Assembly: GCA_902588975.1 (NCBI GenBank)
Contig: CACIRJ010000005.1
Coordinates: 1-64,000 of the forward strand
Source of the DNA: an uncultured Pelagibacteraceae bacterium
GTDB lineage: Bacteria; Pseudomonadota; Alphaproteobacteria; Pelagibacterales; Pelagibacteraceae
Direction: 5' to 3'
Length of the DNA: 64,000 nt
The position numbers and the translations under genes are program-made. Positions 22,966-38,124 of this stretch are shown here, piece by piece (within the stretch, counting starts at the first letter, position 1; the number at the start of each line of letters is the position of its first letter). The notes under the pieces were generated by a model that worked only from the letters and a program-made list of their open reading frames with translations, searched no databases and was not told the origin of the DNA.

Positions 22966-23070
22966 CGCACTTCCGCAAAATACAGCAATTTGCGGTGTCT
23001 TTGGAAACAAAGAGATCGACACCAGTCAGCGAGGGTTCGCCCACTGGTGCGATACTTGCTGTGCGAAATT
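22966..23070 (+). promoter_or_regulatory. Structured leader RNA of ffh (ffh cis-regulatory RNA candidate)
   Basis: A GC-rich island of about 105 bases ending directly at the ffh ATG. Readable helices: closing stem CGCAC (22966-22970) with GTGCG (23061-23065); hairpin CCGCAAA (22973-22979) with TTTGCGG (22989-22995); CTTTG/CAAAG (22999-23012) with a GAAA loop; ACCAGT/ACTGGT (23021-23026, 23043-23048) enclosing GGG-TTCG-CCC. The loop TACAGCAA (22981-22988) can pair with TTGCTGTG (23056-23063) next to the start codon. No Shine-Dalgarno and no SRP RNA GGAAGGAAGC motif are present. A candidate structured RNA before the SRP protein gene has been published for Ca. P. ubique; this appears to be that element. 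Confidence 0.8.
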
Positions 23071-29291: not shown

Positions 29292-31052
29292 ATGACTGTT
29301 TATTCCGCACCTGTGAAAGATATGATGTTCTTATTTGAACATCTAAAAGATAATAAAAATTATAACGAAATTGAAAAATATAAAGAAGTCACATCTGATC
29401 TAGTAAAAGATATCTTAGAGGAAGCTGCAAAAATTAATGAAGAAATGCTTCTTCCTTTAGCAAAAGCTGGAGACGAAAATCCTTGTGTCTATGAAAATGG
29501 AGTAGTTAGAACCCCTCCAGGTTATAAAGAGGCATATTCAAAATTTATAGAAGATGGATGGGTATCTTTAACTTGTGATCCAAAATATGGTGGCCAAGGA
29601 ATGCCAAAAACTGTAAGTGCTTTTTTTGATGAAATGCTTTCATCATCAAGTTTATCTTTTAAATTATATAGTGAATTAAGTATAGGTGCATACAATTGTA
29701 TTTTGAGTCATGCAACTGAAGAAATCAAAAACACATATCTTCCTAAAATTGTTGAGGGTAAATGGAGTGGGACAATGTGTTTAACAGAGCCTCAATGTGG
29801 AACAGATTTAGGATTAATAAAAACAAAGGCAATTAAAAATGAAAATGGTACTTATAATATAAGTGGACAAAAAATCTTTATTACTTCTGGTGACCACGAT
29901 TTAACTGAAAATATTATACACCTTGTTTTAGCAAGAACGCAGGATGCACCAAAAGGAACGAAGGGGATAAGTTTATTTTTAGTACCAAAATATGAAATTA
30001 ATGATGATGGATCAATTGGTCCAAGAAACGGCGTCAATACTGTTTCAATTGAATCAAAAATGGGTATTAAAGGTTCACCCGCATGTGTATTAAGTTTTGA
30101 TGATGCCAAAGGCTATATGATCGGACCAGAGAACAAAGGCTTAAATTCTATGTTTACAATGATGAACTTAGAAAGAATTGTTGTCGGTATACAAGGATTA
30201 GGTCTATCTGAAACAGCTTATCAAACTGCTTTAAGTTATTCAAAAGAGAGAAAACAAGGTAAATCAAATAATAATTCTAATGGAGAAACAGATTTAATTA
30301 TTAAGCACGCAGATATTCGAAGAAGTTTATTAAATATGAAGTCTATAATTGAGGGAGAAAGATCCTTATCTTTTTGGATGGCCCAGCAGGTAGATGTAAG
30401 CTTAAGTCATAGTTCAGAGGAAGTAAAAAAAGATGCATCGGATATTGTAGGTCTTATGACCCCAGTAATTAAGTCATTTTTTACAGATATGGGTATGGAA
30501 ATAACCAATGAAGCAATTCAAGTTTTTGGTGGCTATGGTTATACAAAAGACCAAGGGATAGAACAATTATTTAGAGATAATAGAATTACACCTATTTACG
30601 AAGGAACTAATTCTGTGCAGGCAATTGATTTTGTATTTAGAAAAATTAGTCAGAAAAAAGTTTTTGAAAATTTTATGAAATATGTAGATACAGAAATTCA
30701 AAATTGTTCAAAAGTAGACAATTTAAATGAACATGTAAAAAAAATATCTGAATTAAAAAATATATTGTCAGATTTCACGGACTGGATATCTCCTAATGGC
30801 AATACGCCAAAAGACGATATAAGCGCATCATGTAACGATTATTTAAGATTTTTTGGTTATTTTTGTCTTTCATTTATATGGCTAAAAACAATGAGAAAAA
30901 GCTATGAAAATTTGGAAAACAATAAAGAGTTTTATGAAGATAAATTAAATACAGGAAATTATTATTTTGACAAAATTTTGCCTAGAGCTGAGAGCCATTA
31001 TAAATCTGCTATTTCTGGTAGTAAATATACTATGAGCGCAAAATTTAACTGA
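29292..31052 (+). CDS. dmdC: Acyl-CoA dehydrogenase, likely methylthiopropionyl-CoA dehydrogenase DmdC
   Basis: Flavoprotein of 586 residues, the long form of acyl-CoA dehydrogenase typical of DmdC, which oxidises 3-methylthiopropionyl-CoA to methylthioacryloyl-CoA in the DMSP demethylation pathway. Visible are the FAD/substrate loop CLTEPQCGTDLG, GQKIFITSGDHD, and the catalytic Glu in IYEGTNSVQ. The assignment to DmdC rests on length and on the adjacent dmdB and dmdA genes. It overlaps dmdB by one base. A general acyl-CoA dehydrogenase role is the alternative. Confidence 0.88.
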   Translation: MTVYSAPVKDMMFLFEHLKDNKNYNEIEKYKEVTSDLVKDILEEAAKINEEMLLPLAKAGDENPCVYENGVVRTPPGYKEAYSKFIEDGWVSLTCDPKYGGQGMPKTVSAFFDEMLSSSSLSFKLYSELSIGAYNCILSHATEEIKNTYLPKIVEGKWSGTMCLTEPQCGTDLGLIKTKAIKNENGTYNISGQKIFITSGDHDLTENIIHLVLARTQDAPKGTKGISLFLVPKYEINDDGSIGPRNGVNTVSIESKMGIKGSPACVLSFDDAKGYMIGPENKGLNSMFTMMNLERIVVGIQGLGLSETAYQTALSYSKERKQGKSNNNSNGETDLIIKHADIRRSLLNMKSIIEGERSLSFWMAQQVDVSLSHSSEEVKKDASDIVGLMTPVIKSFFTDMGMEITNEAIQVFGGYGYTKDQGIEQLFRDNRITPIYEGTNSVQAIDFVFRKISQKKVFENFMKYVDTEIQNCSKVDNLNEHVKKISELKNILSDFTDWISPNGNTPKDDISASCNDYLRFFGYFCLSFIWLKTMRKSYENLENNKEFYEDKLNTGNYYFDKILPRAESHYKSAISGSKYTMSAKFN

Positions 31053-32680
31053 TGAATAAATATAATCATAACTTAGATAAAAATCCTTCAAATTATGTCC
31101 CGTTAACACCGCTTAGCTTTCTAGAAAGAGCAAAAGATATTTATCCAAATTATGAGGCTTTAGTATATGAAACAAAATCTTTCACATGGACTGAAGTATT
31201 TAACAGGTGCATCAAATTTGCAAGTGCACTAGAGAAAATTGGTATTGTTGAAGGAGACACAGTCTCAGTTATGACCTTTAATACTCCAGAGATTTTTGAA
31301 GCACATTATTCTGTCCCTATGACAGGAGCCGTTTTAAATACAATTAATTCAAGACTTGATGCAAAAACTGTTGCTTATATTTTAGAACACAGTGAAGCAA
31401 AAGTATTAATAATAGATAGACAATTGCATGCAGTTGCAGAAAAGGCTTTATCAACTTTAAAAGAAAAACCAATCGTAATTGATGTTCAAGATGATTTTGC
31501 TGACCAATCCTTGTTAAAAAAAATTGGAGATAGAGAATATGAGGAATTTTTAAGCACCGGTGATGAAAATTATATTTGGAAAAAACCAAAGGATGAATGG
31601 CAAGCAATTTCTTTAAGTTATACGTCTGGAACAACCGGAAACCCAAAAGGTGTTGTTTATCATCATAGAGGCTCTTATTTAATGTCAACAGGTAGTGCTG
31701 TTGCTTGGAATATGCCAAATAGATTAAATTTTTTAACAGTTGTACCAATGTTCCACTGTAATGGATGGGGGTACCCGTGGACAATACCAATGCTAAATGG
31801 AAAAACAGTTTGTTTAAGAGCTATTGATGTAAAAAAAATATTTGAATTAATTGAAAAGCACGACATTACCCATTTTGGAGGTGCACCTATTGTACTTAAT
31901 ATGATAACAGGTGCATCACAAAATGATATCAAAGAATTAAAAAACAAAGTTTATGTTTTAACTGCTGGAGCACCACCTCCAAGTATTATTTTCAAAAAAA
32001 TGAAAGCATTAGGATTTGAGGTAATGCATGTCTATGGTTTAACAGAAACATATGGACATGTTTTACAATGTGCTTGGAACGATGAATGGAATGGTTTTGA
32101 AGAAGACAAAATTAATGAAATTAAAGCAAGACAAGGTGTGAGATTTCCAAACACAGAAGGAGTGGTTGTTTTAGATCCAGAAACTATGAAACCCGTGCCT
32201 ATGGATGGAGAAACCATTGGCGAGATAATGATCAAAGGTAATGTTGTTATGAAAGGGTATTTTAAAGACAAAGAGGCCACTGAAAAGGCTATGAAAGATG
32301 GATGGTTTCACTCTGGTGATTTGGCAGTTATTTATCCAGATGGATACATCAAGGTTAAAGATAGGTCGAAAGATATTATTATTTCAGGTGGAGAGAATAT
32401 TTCTTCTATCGAAATCGAAAACACACTTTCTAAGCACCCAGCTGTTTCAATTGTTGCTGTAGTAGCAAAACCAGATGAGAAATGGGGAGAAGTTCCATGC
32501 GCATTTATAGAGAAAGTGGCAGATAAAGAGACAAATGAAAAAGAATTAATCGATTTTTGTAGAGAAACTCTAGCAGGGTTCAAAATTCCAAAAAAAATAG
32601 ACTTCTGTGAACTTCCAAAAACATCAACAGGTAAAATCCAAAAATTTGAATTAAGAAAAAGAGCTAAGGAACTTACTTAG
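31052..32680 (+). CDS. dmdB: Acyl-CoA ligase, likely methylthiopropionate-CoA ligase DmdB
   Basis: Adenylate-forming ligase of 542 residues. Motifs: YTSGTTGNPKGVVYHHRG (nucleotide loop), VYGLTETYGH, and a C-terminal region with KDIIISGGENISS and the catalytic Lys in TSTGKIQK. DmdB activates 3-methylthiopropionate, the product of DmdA, with ATP and CoA. The one-base overlap with dmdC and the closeness to dmdA (65 bases) support this over a general medium-chain ligase. The family also accepts other short acids such as propionate and butyrate, so the enzyme may be versatile. Confidence 0.88.
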   Translation: MNKYNHNLDKNPSNYVPLTPLSFLERAKDIYPNYEALVYETKSFTWTEVFNRCIKFASALEKIGIVEGDTVSVMTFNTPEIFEAHYSVPMTGAVLNTINSRLDAKTVAYILEHSEAKVLIIDRQLHAVAEKALSTLKEKPIVIDVQDDFADQSLLKKIGDREYEEFLSTGDENYIWKKPKDEWQAISLSYTSGTTGNPKGVVYHHRGSYLMSTGSAVAWNMPNRLNFLTVVPMFHCNGWGYPWTIPMLNGKTVCLRAIDVKKIFELIEKHDITHFGGAPIVLNMITGASQNDIKELKNKVYVLTAGAPPPSIIFKKMKALGFEVMHVYGLTETYGHVLQCAWNDEWNGFEEDKINEIKARQGVRFPNTEGVVVLDPETMKPVPMDGETIGEIMIKGNVVMKGYFKDKEATEKAMKDGWFHSGDLAVIYPDGYIKVKDRSKDIIISGGENISSIEIENTLSKHPAVSIVAVVAKPDEKWGEVPCAFIEKVADKETNEKELIDFCRETLAGFKIPKKIDFCELPKTSTGKIQKFELRKRAKELT

Positions 32681-32745
32681 ATTTCTTTCAAATAAACAAC
32701 TTACTTTCTTTACAAATAGATAAAAAGATGACACTAAGCTAAAAA

Positions 32746-33855
32746 ATGAAAAACTTTTCTATTGCAAAATCAAGAAGACTTAGAGGTACGCCTTATACAT
32801 CAAGAATTGAAAAACAAGGTGTTACAGCTTACACAATATACAATCATATGTTGCTTCCTGCTGCATTTGGTTCTTTAGAAGACTCATATCATCATTTAAA
32901 AGAGCATGTTCAAGTTTGGGATGTGGCTGCTGAAAGACAAGTAGAGATTACTGGAAAAGATGCTGCAAAATTGGTTCAACTTATGACTTGTAGAGATCTT
33001 TCGAAATCAAAAGATGGAAGATGTTATTATTGTCCAATCATAGATGATAATGCTGGATTAATTAATGATCCAGTTGTTCTAAGATTTAATGAGAATAAAT
33101 GGTGGGTTTCTATTGCAGATACGGATGTAATCTTATTTGCAAAAGGATTGGCAATTGGAAATAAATTTGATGTAAATATTATCGAACCCGAAGTTGACAT
33201 TATGGCTGTGCAAGGGCCTAAATCTTTTAAATTGATGGAAAAAGTTTTTGGAGAAAAGATAACAAAATTAAAATTTTTTGGTTTTGATTATTTTGATTTT
33301 GCTGGAGCCAAACATTTAATTGCTCAATCAGGATGGTCTAAACAAGGTGGATATGAAATTTATGTAGAGAATAATGAGGCGGGTTTAAAACTATACGATC
33401 ATTTATTTGAAATTGGAGATGAGTTTAATATTAGAGCAGGATGTCCTAATTTAATTGAACGTATCGAAAGTGGATTACTTTCTCAAGGAAACGATATGGA
33501 TAATGGAGACAACCCATACGAATGTGGCTTTGATAAATATATTAATATTGATAGTGATGTTGAATTTTTAGGAAAAGAGCAATTAAAAAAAATAAAGTCT
33601 GAAGGAATTAAAAGAAAACTAATGGGCGTTAAAATTGATACTGATAAAATAAGCGTAACTGGTTCAATGAATTTAACAGATGAAAAAAATAATATAATCG
33701 GAGAACTACGATCAGGTTGTTACAATCCAACTTTTAAACAGGTAATTGGTATAGCTATGATAAAAAAACCGTATTTTGAAGCAAAGCAAACATTCAAAAT
33801 TGATATAAATGGTAATAGTTTTAACGGAACAGTTTGCGATTTACCTTTCATTTAG
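32746..33855 (+). CDS. dmdA: Dimethylsulfoniopropionate demethylase DmdA
   Basis: Tetrahydrofolate-dependent demethylase of 369 residues, the length of the Ca. P. ubique enzyme, which moves a methyl group from DMSP to THF and leaves 3-methylthiopropionate. The sequence closely follows my memory of the Pelagibacter protein ([63 protein letters not shown]). It belongs to the GcvT fold but is distinct from glycine-cleavage T protein. The 65-base gap upstream of it is the largest in the dmd cluster and may hold its own promoter, though none is obvious. Confidence 0.96.
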
Positions 33856-33869
33856 TATAAATCTTTAAA

Positions 33870-34880
33870 ATGACTAATATAGCTATCATCGGTGCAACCG
33901 GTAATGTTGGAAGAAAGACACTAGAAGTTATAGAAAAAAAGGATATTAAATTTAATAAACTTTTTTTAGTAGCTTCTTCTAATAGTGCTGGAAAAAAAAT
34001 AAGTTTTAAGGGCAAAGATTATGAAGTCCATGATCTTGAAAAATACGATTTTTCAAATGCAAATATAACTTTTTTTGCAGCAGGTGGTAAAATTGCAGAA
34101 CAATATGCAGAAAGTGCAGCAAAATTAACAACTGTAATTGATAATTCTAGTTTTTTTAGAATGGATCCTGACGTTCCACTTATTGTACCTCAAGTGAATG
34201 CAGAAAAAATTAATGAAATGAAAAAAAATATTGTGGCAAATCCTAACTGCTCAACAGCTCAGTTAGTATTAGCTCTTAAACCATTACATGATTTATATAA
34301 AATAAAAAGAGTAATAGTTTCCACCTATCAATCTGTTTCTGGAGGCGGAAAAGCACCTATGGATGAATTGATTGAACAAACTAAATCTTATCTTGATGGA
34401 AATTCTGTTGAATCTAAAAATTTTACTAAACAAATAGCTTTCAATATCATTCCTCACATTGATGTTTTTTCGGATGATGGATACACAAAAGAAGAATTGA
34501 AAATGACTAATGAAACAAAAAAAATACTGGACAATAATATAGAGCTAACAGCTACATGCGTTAGAATTCCTGTTCTTGTATCACATTCAGAATCAGTAAA
34601 TATAGAGTTTGAAAATCCTTATTCTCTAGAACAAATCAGAGAAGCATTAAATAATGCTGATGGTTGTAGCGTTATAGATAAAAGAGAAAATGGAGGATAT
34701 AGTACACCAATAGAAGCAACTGGTAGTGATGAAACATTTATCTCAAGAATTAGAGATGATAAAACAAAAGAGAATTCAATTAATTTGTGGATCGTTTCAG
34801 ATAACCTATTAAGAGGCGCCGCATTAAATTCTGTTGAAATTGCAGAAACAATAATGAAAGCAAATCAAAATGGAAAATAA
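33870..34880 (+). CDS. asd: Aspartate-semialdehyde dehydrogenase
   Basis: NADPH-dependent enzyme of 336 residues reducing aspartyl phosphate to the semialdehyde, a precursor for lysine/diaminopimelate, threonine and methionine. N-terminal IIGATGNVGRKTLEV binds NADP; the active-site Cys lies in ANPNCSTAQLVLALKPLH; a catalytic His region is VRIPVLVSHSES. It is 14 bases downstream of dmdA and overlaps sdhC by 11 bases, a position between sdh and other genes seen in several alphaproteobacteria. Confidence 0.95.
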   Translation: MTNIAIIGATGNVGRKTLEVIEKKDIKFNKLFLVASSNSAGKKISFKGKDYEVHDLEKYDFSNANITFFAAGGKIAEQYAESAAKLTTVIDNSSFFRMDPDVPLIVPQVNAEKINEMKKNIVANPNCSTAQLVLALKPLHDLYKIKRVIVSTYQSVSGGGKAPMDELIEQTKSYLDGNSVESKNFTKQIAFNIIPHIDVFSDDGYTKEELKMTNETKKILDNNIELTATCVRIPVLVSHSESVNIEFENPYSLEQIREALNNADGCSVIDKRENGGYSTPIEATGSDETFISRIRDDKTKENSINLWIVSDNLLRGAALNSVEIAETIMKANQNGK

Positions 34881-35250
34881 TCCTTTATCTCCTCATATTC
34901 AAATTTATAGATGGCATGTATCATCTTTAGTTTCAATATCTCATAGAATTACAGGAATAATAAATATATTAGCAATAACTTTAATTTGTATCTTTTTTAT
35001 TTTTTTTTCATTTAGCGAAGGAAGTCATGAATTTATAAAATTATTCCTCCAATCTTTTATTGGGAAATTTTTCATCTTGGGTATTACATGGTCTTTTAGT
35101 TTTCAAATCTTAAGTGAGATAAGACATTTAATTATGGATTTTGGTTATGGATTTGAGTTAAAAACCACAAAAATTACTGGCTTAATTGTAATATTTGGAT
35201 CTTTTATATTAACCGTTTCAATTTATTTAATAGGACGAAATTTATTTTAA
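34870..35250 (+). CDS. sdhC: Succinate dehydrogenase cytochrome b556-type subunit SdhC, heme-ligand His absent
   Basis: Membrane anchor of respiratory complex II, 126 residues, three hydrophobic helices. The quinone-site segment SISHRITG keeps the Ser and Arg of the family and EIRHLIMDFGYGFEL is clearly homologous. By hand alignment with E. coli SdhC (YHVVVGIRH) the heme b ligand His84 is Gln79 here (FQILSEIRH, codon 35104-35106). SdhD also lacks its ligand. The gene overlaps asd by 11 bases and sdhD by one. Confidence 0.9.
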   Translation: MENNPLSPHIQIYRWHVSSLVSISHRITGIINILAITLICIFFIFFSFSEGSHEFIKLFLQSFIGKFFILGITWSFSFQILSEIRHLIMDFGYGFELKTTKITGLIVIFGSFILTVSIYLIGRNLF

Positions 35251-35579
35251 TGAGAGCAGTAACAAAAAAATGGGTATTTTTAAAAGTGAGTTCTCTCATA
35301 TTAGTACCTTTGATGTTATGGTTTGCTTTAAATTTGGTTAGTATTTATGACAAAAGCTACTTAGAGATATTAACTTTTCTAACTTCTCAACCTTCAAAGT
35401 TTATATTTAGTCTTTTTCTTATTTTTGCTTACTTTTTCTCGGCATTAAGCATCAGCGAGGTTTTTGAAGACTATATTAAAGATGAAAAAATCAAAAATGC
35501 CGCAAACAAAGCTTTAAATTTTTTTGCTATAACAATTCCTTTAATTACAATATTTGCAGTATTTAAAATAACTATATGA
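35250..35579 (+). CDS. sdhD: Succinate dehydrogenase membrane anchor SdhD, heme-ligand His absent
   Basis: Second membrane anchor of complex II, 109 residues, three hydrophobic helices. The quinone-site Asp-Tyr pair is kept in [10 protein letters not shown]. The heme ligand His stands 12 residues before this Tyr in E. coli (HAWIGMWQVLTDY); here that position is Phe63 ([13 protein letters not shown], codon 35436-35438), and no His occurs anywhere in the protein. It was identified by position between sdhC and sdhA and by the EDY motif, since SdhD is poorly conserved. It overlaps sdhA by four bases. Confidence 0.88.
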
Positions 35580-37351
35580 AATCTTATAATATTATAGATC
35601 ATGAATACGATGTCGTTGTCCTTGGCGCTGGAGGTTCTGGCCTAAGAGCTGCGGTTGGCTTAAGTGAAGCTGGATTAAAAACTGCATGCATTTCTAAAGT
35701 CTTTCCAACCAGAAGTCATACATCAGCTGCCCAAGGTGGAATTTCAGCAGCCCTTGGAAACATGGGAGAAGACGATTGGCGTTGGCATATGTACGATACT
35801 GTAAAAGGAGCAGATTGGTTAGGCGATCAAGATAGTATTGAATATTTGTGTAAGGAAGCTCCAAAAGCAGTACTAGAATTAGAAAAGTATGGTGTTCCTT
35901 TTAGTAGAACAGAAGATGGAAAAATTTATCAAAGACCATTTGGTGGAATGACAAAAAATTATGGAAATGGAATTGTACAAAGAACTTGTGCTGCAGCAGA
36001 CAGAACTGGTCATGCAATTCTCCACACATTATATGGTCAAGCACTTAAACATAATACAGAATTTTTTATTGAATATTTTGCATTAGACTTAATTATGAAA
36101 GATGGACAATGCAAAGGTTTAATTGCTTGGAATTTAAATGATGGAACAATTCATCGTTTTAGATCTCACATAACAATTATAGCCACAGGGGGATATGGGA
36201 AGGTGTATTACTCAGCAACATCTGCACATACTTGTACTGGTGATGGTAATGCAATGGTATTAAGAGCTGGATTACCTCTTCAAGATATGGAGTTTGTACA
36301 ATTTCACCCAACAGGAATATATGGACACGGAACACTTATTTCTGAAGGTGTAAGAGGTGAAGGTGGATATTTGGTAAACTCTAAAGGTGAAAGATTTATG
36401 GAGAGATATGCTCCCAATGCAAAAGATCTTGCATCAAGAGATGTAGTTAGCAGATCAATGTCTATTGAAATCAATGAGGGAAGAGGTGTTGGTAAAGATC
36501 AAGACCATGTTCATTTATATTTAAGTCATTTAGATAAAAAAGTTATTGAAGATAGATTGCCAGGCATTACTGAGGCAGCAAGATTATTTGCAAATGTAGA
36601 TGTAACCAAAGAACCGATACCAGTTGTTCCAACAGTTCATTATAATATGGGTGGTATACCAACAAATTATAAAGCTGAAGTTTTAACAGTAAACGGATCT
36701 CAAAAAACAGTCCCAGGTTTGATGGCGATTGGTGAGGCTGCGTGCGTATCTGTGCATGGAGCAAATAGATTAGGTTCAAATTCACTTATTGACTTGGTTG
36801 TTTTTGGAAGAGCAGCAGCAAAGAGAGCAGCGGAATTGGTAAAACCTGGAACGCCTCACGAAGAAGTTAGTGAAAGCGAAACTGAAAAATGTCTAAATAG
36901 ATTTGATAAGCTAAGGTATGCAGAGGGAGATAATGGAACTGCTGAACTTAGACTGGCGATGCAAAAAACAATGCAGTCTAAATGTGCTGTATTTAGAACT
37001 GAAAAGAATCTTAAAGAGGGTGTAGACGAGATCAGAAAAACATATGACGGCATGGAATCGATTTCTGTTAAAGATAAATCGTTGGTATTCAATACTGATT
37101 TAGTTGAGACTTTAGAATTTGATAATTTAATTAGACAAGCAATAACAACTGTAGATTCTGCATATCACAGAAAAGAAAGCAGAGGAGCTCATGCTCGTGA
37201 AGATTATCCGAAAAGAAATGATGAAAAATTTATGAAACATACATTATCTTGGTGTGATGGAAAAAATACTAAAATTGAATACAGAGATGTACATACTTCA
37301 ACATTAACAAATGAAGTCCAATATTTTCCTCCACAAGAAAGAGTGTATTAA
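35576..37351 (+). CDS. sdhA: Succinate dehydrogenase flavoprotein subunit
   Basis: Catalytic subunit of complex II, 591 residues, which oxidises succinate to fumarate on the inner face of the membrane. FAD-binding motif [13 protein letters not shown] near residue 14; the His for covalent FAD attachment lies in [10 protein letters not shown]; the active-site region includes [17 protein letters not shown] and [14 protein letters not shown]. It overlaps sdhB by one base. The length and motifs are entirely normal, in contrast to the altered membrane anchors. Confidence 0.97.
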
Positions 37352-38124
37352 TGGTTCAATTAAATTTACCACAAAACTCAAAAGTTAATAAAGGTAAATA
37401 TTTTAAAGACAAAACCGGTTCAAAGAATATCAGAAAAGTAAATGTTTACAGATGGGATCCATCAACTGGAGAGAACCCAAGAATAGACACATATGAAGTA
37501 GACATGGATAATTGTCCATCTAAAGTTTTAGACATACTAAATAAAATTAAAAACGAAATTGATCCAACACTTGCATATAGAAGATCTTGTGCGCATGGAG
37601 TTTGTGGTTCTTGTGCAATGAATATGGGTGGAAAAAATGGTCTTGCATGTACTAAGCCACATGCAGAAATCAAGGGAGATATAGATATATACCCTTTGCC
37701 TCACTTAAAAGTAAAAAAAGATTTAATAGGAGACTTAAGTGGATTATATAAACAATACCAATCCATTGAACCTTGGTTAAAAAATAATTCAAAAAGTGAA
37801 ACAACAGAAATTCATCAATCTCCAGAAGATAGAGCTAAACTTGATGGAGCTTATGAATGTATAATGTGTGCTTGTTGTTCTACTTCATGTCCTAGTTATT
37901 GGTGGAATGGCGATAAGTATTTAGGTCCTGCAGTTTTATTACAAGCTTATAGATGGATAATGGATAGCAGAGACGAAGATAGAAAGGAAAGACTTCAAAA
38001 GGTTGCAGATGAACTTAAGCTTTATAGATGCCATACGATTTTGAACTGCACTAACGCATGTCCAAAAGGATTAAATCCAGCAAAAGCTATTGCTGAGATA
38101 AAGAAAATGCTTGCAACCACATAA
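37351..38124 (+). CDS. sdhB: Succinate dehydrogenase iron-sulfur subunit
   Basis: Electron-transfer subunit of complex II, 257 residues. All three cluster sets are present: 2Fe-2S in [15 protein letters not shown] with a later Cys in GLACTK, 4Fe-4S in [15 protein letters not shown], and 3Fe-4S in [17 protein letters not shown]. The Trp-Trp of PSYWW next to the quinone site is conserved. So electrons can reach the quinone site even if heme b is missing. Methylmalonate-semialdehyde dehydrogenase follows 20 bases downstream. Confidence 0.97.

Follow-up and report, generated by a model that had tools for sequence, protein, structure and literature searches.

A putatively heme-free complex II in SAR11: absence of both heme b ligands from the membrane anchors SdhC and SdhD

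Complex II (succinate dehydrogenase) of a SAR11 bacterium is very probably (about 0.85) a working succinate:ubiquinone oxidoreductase which descends from the type C enzymes and no longer binds heme b. This reading is preferred because both heme ligands are absent, both glycines located four residues after the ligands (ligand+4) are replaced and the residues of the quinone site and of the cofactors are kept, and because yeast and Tetrahymena provide natural examples of a complex II without heme. It was reached for a stretch of 64,000 nucleotides from an uncultured Pelagibacteraceae bacterium (contig CACIRJ010000005.1, positions 1 to 64,000), hereafter the window, to which all coordinates refer. 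An earlier note on this DNA had proposed a complex II without heme b, possibly as an iron- and heme-saving trait. On the grounds just given the heme-free part of that proposal is upheld, while the saving motive, discussed below, did not find the same support.

Four genes in the order sdhCDAB were identified in the window:

34870 to 35250, forward strand: sdhC, membrane anchor of 126 amino acids (open reading frame; TIGR02970, PF01127)
35250 to 35579, forward strand: sdhD, membrane anchor of 109 amino acids containing no histidine (open reading frame; TIGR02968; fold match to E. coli SdhD)
35576 to 37351, forward strand: sdhA, flavoprotein, with the FAD-attachment residue His48 kept (TIGR01816, 958.8 bits)
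37351 to 38124, forward strand: sdhB, iron-sulfur subunit; the 11 cysteines of the E. coli protein are all kept, as are the quinone-site residues Trp185 and His228

The operon is intact and is followed downstream by genes for methylmalonate-semialdehyde dehydrogenase, malate dehydrogenase (mdh) and sucCD. Just upstream of asd and sdhC, a dimethylsulfoniopropionate demethylase gene is located together with acyl-CoA synthetase and acyl-CoA dehydrogenase genes (29292-33855); an ffh sRNA motif (RF01793, 58.2 bits) lies at 23005-23057.

SdhC scored 109.6 bits against the NCBIfam equivalog TIGR02970 (cut-off 52.3) and 91.3 bits against PF01127, and SdhD scored 48.2 bits against the equivalog TIGR02968 (cut-off 41.8). 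The predicted models of SdhC and SdhD had pLDDT values of 86.9 and 92.8, respectively, and showed three long helices and one short helix each. Based on the equivalogs and the fold matches, the two proteins belong to the SdhC and SdhD anchor families, as type C requires. A PDB sequence search with SdhD gave no match up to E 10, and a Foldseek search gave nothing at E of 0.001 or below; E. coli SdhD was still among the top rows, with a TM score of up to 0.82. A second sdhC/sdhD pair was considered and rejected: a PF01127 profile search of the window's assembly, which is 77% complete, returned sdhC and sdhD as the sole matches, and a single TIGR02970 match was found in G011, another member of the same genus.

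The heme ligands were numbered after SdhC and SdhD of E. coli K-12, and the corresponding codons were located as follows:

35104 to 35106, forward strand: CAA, SdhC Gln79, at the heme ligand His84 (alignment with E. coli)
35436 to 35438, forward strand: TTC, SdhD Phe63, at the heme ligand His71 (sequence and structural alignment)

Type C anchors carry one heme-ligand histidine each; in the window Gln79 and Phe63 were found instead. Both substitutions, as well as the complete lack of histidine in SdhD, had been claimed in the earlier note, and they are confirmed by alignment with E. coli K-12 and, for SdhD, by structure. The SdhD model was superimposed on E. coli SdhD (2wdq_D) over 105 residues (3 to 107 on 11 to 115) with an rmsd of 1.8 and a Z score of 13.2, a value to be read with the first unrelated row at Z 8.9, helical bundles being able to come near by arrangement alone. 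Since both ranges are 105 residues long the alignment is gap-free, and it places Phe63 on His71, Ser67 on Gly75 and Asp74-Tyr75 on Asp82-Tyr83. The SdhC model matched the E. coli SdhC chains with Z scores of 12.2-12.8, with end offsets that differed by one residue, so that the register of SdhC rests on sequence, namely the IRH motif. A shifted alignment with SdhC His86 of this motif as ligand was rejected, the motif fixing His86 to E. coli His91. Sequencing error was likewise dismissed: SdhC and SdhD proteins identical to those of the window, encoded with a few silent differences, occur in isolate AG-910-E21 (L217), and the change is found throughout the clade.

The residues at the ligand+4 positions, together with two residues which may pair with SdhC Glu83, are encoded at the following positions:

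35116 to 35118, forward strand: GAG, SdhC Glu83, at the conserved Gly88 (ligand+4), proposed substitute for a heme propionate
35448 to 35450, forward strand: AGC, SdhD Ser67, at the conserved Gly75 (ligand+4; alignment with E. coli)
34945 to 34947, forward strand: SdhC Arg26 (E. coli Arg31), kept in every row, both of the clade (55 of 55) and outside SAR11 (165 of 165)
35283 to 35285, forward strand: SdhD Lys12, at E. coli Arg20, a lysine shared by 54 of the 55 clade rows

Clade rows are those of the loss clade in the tree described below, and outside rows those of Pseudomonadota other than SAR11. Glutamate replaced SdhC Gly88 in all 53 genomes labelled g1, g5 or g6 and in each of the 55 loss-clade rows of a tree from which this column had been left out; the 55-row and 147-record tallies given below picked the loss clade by Glu88, and the evidence for this residue is taken from the genus labels and the tree. 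Outside SAR11 the same position was glycine in 160 of 165 rows. All 55 clade rows carry Ser, Thr or Asn in place of SdhD Gly75; the glycine is present in 157 of 163 outside rows. SdhC Arg26 would match yeast Sdh3 Arg97, provided that the structural alignment is gap-free before it. SdhD Lys12 is a possible partner of SdhC Glu83; at its site all 9 sister rows carry Arg, and Lys also occurs in 3 of 3 rows of the ligand-keeping g8.

The catalytic parts of the enzyme are largely unchanged. The quinone-site pair of SdhD was found at:

35469 to 35474, forward strand: SdhD Asp74-Tyr75 (E. coli Asp82-Tyr83), kept (alignment with E. coli)

The equivalents of SdhC Ser27 and Arg31 and of SdhD Asp82 and Tyr83 were unchanged throughout the 55 clade rows, in agreement with the statement in the earlier note that the quinone-site residues are kept. 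Its further statement that all SdhA and SdhB motifs are kept holds for the 11 cysteines of SdhB and the FAD histidine of SdhA. SdhA was 53.6% identical to its E. coli counterpart and agreed at six of seven checked residues, Thr254 being Ser. Based on alignment with E. coli, the residues for covalent FAD and three iron-sulfur clusters expected of type C are present in SdhA and SdhB. In comparison with L209, dN/dS was 0.088/0.778 for sdhC and 0.072/0.705 for sdhD, i.e. about 0.1; for the other five relatives dN of the anchors ranged from 0 to 0.27 and dS from 0.015 to 1.65, several of the dS values being near saturation. By these ratios both genes are under purifying selection.

The distribution of the ligands within the order Pelagibacterales (SAR11) was determined from an order-wide search, in which 173 of 197 genomes matched and part of the matches were fetched, and from a search of named-genome contigs, in which the best 80 of at least 583 confirmed stretches were kept, 62 of them from Pelagibacterales. 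The 24 order genomes lacking an SdhC match may reflect gaps. An uneven sample of 147 records with distinct titles was obtained, chosen by match score and in which one species may recur, so that the numbers are sample counts and not population shares; L081 (incomplete match) and L036 (a 10-base stretch) were left out. Both ligands were absent in 89 records, one was absent in 43 and both were kept in 14, at least one ligand thus being absent in 132 of 147; in the remaining record (L018) the SdhC ligand is kept and the sequence ends before SdhD. Glu88 was present in 116 records, comprising the 89 without both ligands, 25 with SdhC His84 only and two with SdhD His71 only. In another 16 records the SdhC ligand was replaced by Tyr (15) or Asn (1) and Gly88 by Cys, Ser or Asp, with SdhD His71 kept; those of the 16 that carry a label all belong to family f2. 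The remaining 15 were unchanged at both SdhC sites, and in 14 of these both histidines were seen. Both ligands were kept in g2, g3, g4 and g8. The alignment of many SAR11 anchors, which the earlier note had recommended as a check, thus identifies the loss as a trait of a clade. The trait is also polymorphic within SAR11 and was reached stepwise, a point which that note had missed.

The order of the changes was reconstructed by parsimony on a tree of 87 rows (73 SAR11, 14 outgroup) based on SdhC, SdhD and partial SdhA, from which the four trait columns were excluded; 46 of its 84 inner branches were starred, and one outgroup row was misplaced to the wrong side. The first step was the replacement of SdhD Gly75 by Ser, on the branch from which a clade including L234 (AG-439-C13, CACIPU010000023.1) arises. 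L234 is the sister of the loss clade, has both histidines and already carries Ser at SdhD 75; by its residues it appears to be a transitional form. In the second step a single branch acquired Glu for SdhC Gly88 and Phe for SdhD His71, Glu88 then remaining constant in 55 rows. In the third step SdhC His84 was lost four separate times under Glu88, three times to Gln and once to Phe; one of these losses (L061) sits on a weak fork. Such repeated loss of His84 after Glu88 is what a relaxed need for the ligand predicts. A separate branch in family f2 lost SdhC His84 and Gly88. Two rows (L065 and L071) have His at SdhD 71, and parsimony is compatible with either reversal or retention. A more general interpretation, which is somewhat more likely than not, is that bacteria reach a heme-free complex II, the commonest form in SAR11, in a repeatable manner: the glycine notches would close first and the histidines would then drift, twice in SAR11 and once with a mirror image of the yeast change (SdhC Gly to Glu), L234 standing at the first step.

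Outside SAR11, 165 rows from Pseudomonadota were compared, namely 89 of a class sample, 58 further loci and 18 non-SAR11 rows from the best 80 of at least 583 stretches. In the class sample 153 genomes matched, the SAR11 genomes G000 and G001 among them, and its rows were the 30 top-scoring loci plus a further 59, most of which matched less well. Both sites were readable in 160 of the 165 rows; both histidines were kept in 156 and one was lost in four (L115, L116, L148 and L336). All four losers had at least one ligand+4 glycine changed, compared with two of 156 keepers (Fisher exact p = 5.7e-7, the rows being treated as unrelated). The glycine change lay in the histidine-keeping subunit, or in both subunits, in three of the four, and three of the four come from assemblies of 1.5 Mb or less. 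L115, L116 and L148, which represent three alphaproteobacterial families, have one ligand replaced by Tyr and a ligand+4 glycine by Glu or Ser. In L336 (genome G452, 1.5 Mb, family f149) the SdhD ligand is Tyr and SdhC Gly88 is Cys. No match to ALAD was found in G452, and this organism may resemble the heme-auxotrophic Bartonella, described as unable to make heme in the relevant passage of PMC3483173; a heme auxotroph which drops the heme of complex II would be a separate case. The two keepers with changed glycines, L126 (G242, 1.4 Mb) and L157 (G228, 1.3 Mb), have both glycines replaced (Asp/Asp and Asp/Ser, respectively). They are possibly transitional first-step forms; alternatively, they may be counter-examples, in which case the glycines would not decide whether heme is bound.

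Two other explanations of these data have to be weighed against a heme-free enzyme. Heme b might still be bound through non-canonical ligands (SdhC His25, His86 or another residue) or through its propionates only. Five histidines are left in the SdhC of the window, among them His25 (E. coli His30) and His86 (E. coli His91), and within the clade 53 of 55 rows retain the equivalent of the former and all 55 that of the latter; in the other two rows, one of them L044, His30 is Thr. The E. coli axial-ligand mutants reportedly retain heme, by the title of a cited study, and crystal structures of the ligand mutants His84Met and His71Met exist, as known from titles. Given the five histidines and these mutants, a weakly or oddly ligated heme is possible, foremost in the 25 records keeping His84 and the two keeping His71. 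However, both are about as common where the ligands are kept (among the outside rows, His30 in 156 of 165 and His91 in 145 of 165), and little about heme can be read from their presence. The IRH histidine of SdhC, which the earlier note had named as the residue that could overturn its reading, does not do so: the His91 equivalent accompanies the regular ligand in those 145 rows. In addition, Glu and Ser or Thr now occupy the ligand+4 glycine sites, the SdhD of the window has no histidine to offer, and the yeast enzyme lacks heme even with one histidine remaining. Retention of heme by such means is therefore considered improbable.

It is far less probable still that the anchors are decaying and that complex II has lost its attachment to the membrane or its function. 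They do evolve faster than SdhA, with dN of 0.07-0.27 compared with 0.009-0.064 for partial SdhA in the same five pairs (the near-identical L217 being left out). Against decay, dN is far below dS in both sdhC and sdhD, the equivalents of Arg31, Asp82, Tyr83 and Ser27 do not vary among the 55 rows, the operon is intact and lies near mdh and sucCD, and the structure predictions give a confident fold for either anchor.

For the heme-free succinate:ubiquinone oxidoreductase we infer the absence of bound heme, a salt bridge of Glu83, a changed packing of the anchors and catalytic competence. Electrons would pass from succinate to FAD, through the three iron-sulfur clusters of SdhB and to ubiquinone at the site formed by SdhB, SdhC and SdhD, as in the heme enzyme. 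The structural role of the heme, that of joining SdhC to SdhD in the membrane, would be taken over by direct packing: SdhC Gln79 would lie opposite SdhD Phe63 at the former position of the iron, SdhC Glu83 would replace a heme propionate and pair with SdhC Arg26 or SdhD Lys12, and SdhD Ser67 would fill the matching notch. In E. coli the heme of complex II lies off the electron path, according to the relevant part of PMC3290573, and a heme-free variant is significantly active and supports growth on succinate, which bears out the contention of the earlier note that the heme-less E. coli enzyme keeps activity.

Why the heme was given up is a different question. The proposal that it was dropped as an iron- or heme-saving adaptation in the course of open-ocean streamlining is compatible with a heme-free enzyme and is regarded as doubtful. 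It fits the absence of at least one ligand in most sampled SAR11 records, and the ligand-keepers include g2 and L239, a MAG titled DeepCast_200m; the small assemblies of three of the four outside losers and the lack of an ALAD match in G452 also point to saving or to genome reduction. On the other side, two enzymes of heme synthesis and the heme ligands of the bc1 complex are kept. Ferrochelatase was found in 20 of 20 Pelagibacterales genomes, and ALAD (hemB) matches in 13 of 13. Cytochrome b of the bc1 complex was found in 19 of 20, the miss being the incomplete genome of the window, with both H-X13-H pairs in all 19. A general loss of heme in SAR11 is ruled out by these three proteins; the loss is confined to complex II and does not extend to heme use at large. 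The saving motive is further weakened by similar-sized genomes with ligands, since near-complete genomes of the ligand-keeping g2, g3, g4 and g8 are as small (1.0-1.3 Mb) and 17 of 19 assemblies of 1.5 Mb or less in the class sample keep both ligands. Moreover, the origins are too few, and drift after a pocket-closing change fits equally well. The ALAD matches of three genomes, all of ligand-keeping genera, were interrupted: one internal stop was present in each of two g2 genomes (G001:C1:717145-718074 and G007:C1:411426-412355), and the match in G158 was split over two frames (G158:C1:1029466-1030418). These interruptions could be frame ends or real decay.

No report of a heme-less complex II in SAR11, or in a wild-type bacterial SdhCD, was found in the open-access literature, most subscription journals lying outside the search. 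Heme-free complex II is already known from yeast, from ciliates and from E. coli fumarate reductase (type D). What appears to be new is a bacterial descendant of type C with both ligands lost and a mirror-image Glu, for which a second family shows a repeated loss and intermediates still exist. In SAR11 the same operon occurs naturally with two, one or no heme ligands, and the group has cultured members, so the role of the heme in assembly, stability and superoxide control is testable by comparison rather than with crippled mutants. Why complex II has an off-path heme is an old open question, as stated in the relevant part of PMC3290573. According to a passage of PMC12636525, no heterotrophic group is more abundant in the surface ocean than SAR11; a heme-free enzyme in this group, if true, would therefore be very common. 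TIGR02970 labels the ligand-less SdhC, which scores above its cut-off, "cytochrome b556 subunit", and this naming hides the trait: automatic annotation calls a likely heme-free SAR11 protein a cytochrome b556.

Among the closest known cases is complex II of S. cerevisiae (PDB 9QDL/9QDM), heme-free by cryo-EM and spectroscopy according to the relevant passages of PMC13066397. There, Tyr108 of Sdh4 stands at the ligand position, and Glu112 replaces the glycine and bonds Sdh3 Arg97 instead of a propionate; Glu112 lies four residues after the ligand position, as does the Glu of SdhC in SAR11. The two enzymes share the type C fold, the quinone site, a replaced ligand and the ligand+4 change from glycine to Glu. 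Unlike the enzyme of the window, which lacks both ligands, yeast keeps the Sdh3 histidine, bonded to Tyr108. In SAR11 the Glu lies in the other subunit (SdhC), as a mirror image, the facing pair is Gln/Phe, and the case is bacterial, clade-wide and accompanied by intermediates.

The type D complex II of Tetrahymena thermophila, in which heme b is absent and cardiolipin sits in the heme place (described in part of PMC10227065), is likewise a wild-type succinate dehydrogenase with two core anchors, the absence of heme in SAR11 being deduced here from protein alignments. Its eight hydrophilic and seven membrane subunits and its divergent anchors contrast with the plain four-gene operon of SAR11. 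SdhCDAB of E. coli (type C, 1NEK) agrees with the window in gene order, in its folds, at the quinone site and at almost every FAD and iron-sulfur residue checked, and differs in having His84/His71 with Gly88/Gly75, where the window has Gln/Phe with Glu/Ser. The fumarate reductase of E. coli (type D, 1KF6/1L0V), a two-anchor enzyme placed in the heme-less class in the relevant part of PMC10238741, resembles the window in its two membrane anchors, which by sequence have no heme ligands. Unlike fumarate reductase, the window encodes SdhC/SdhD equivalogs, its SdhC scoring 15 bits against the FrdD family PF02313 (cut-off 25), and its SdhA matches the forward-type TIGR01816. It also differs from type F (Mycobacterium Sdh1, with a single six-helix anchor and a Rieske cluster) in having two separate anchors with one cysteine in total, located in SdhC.
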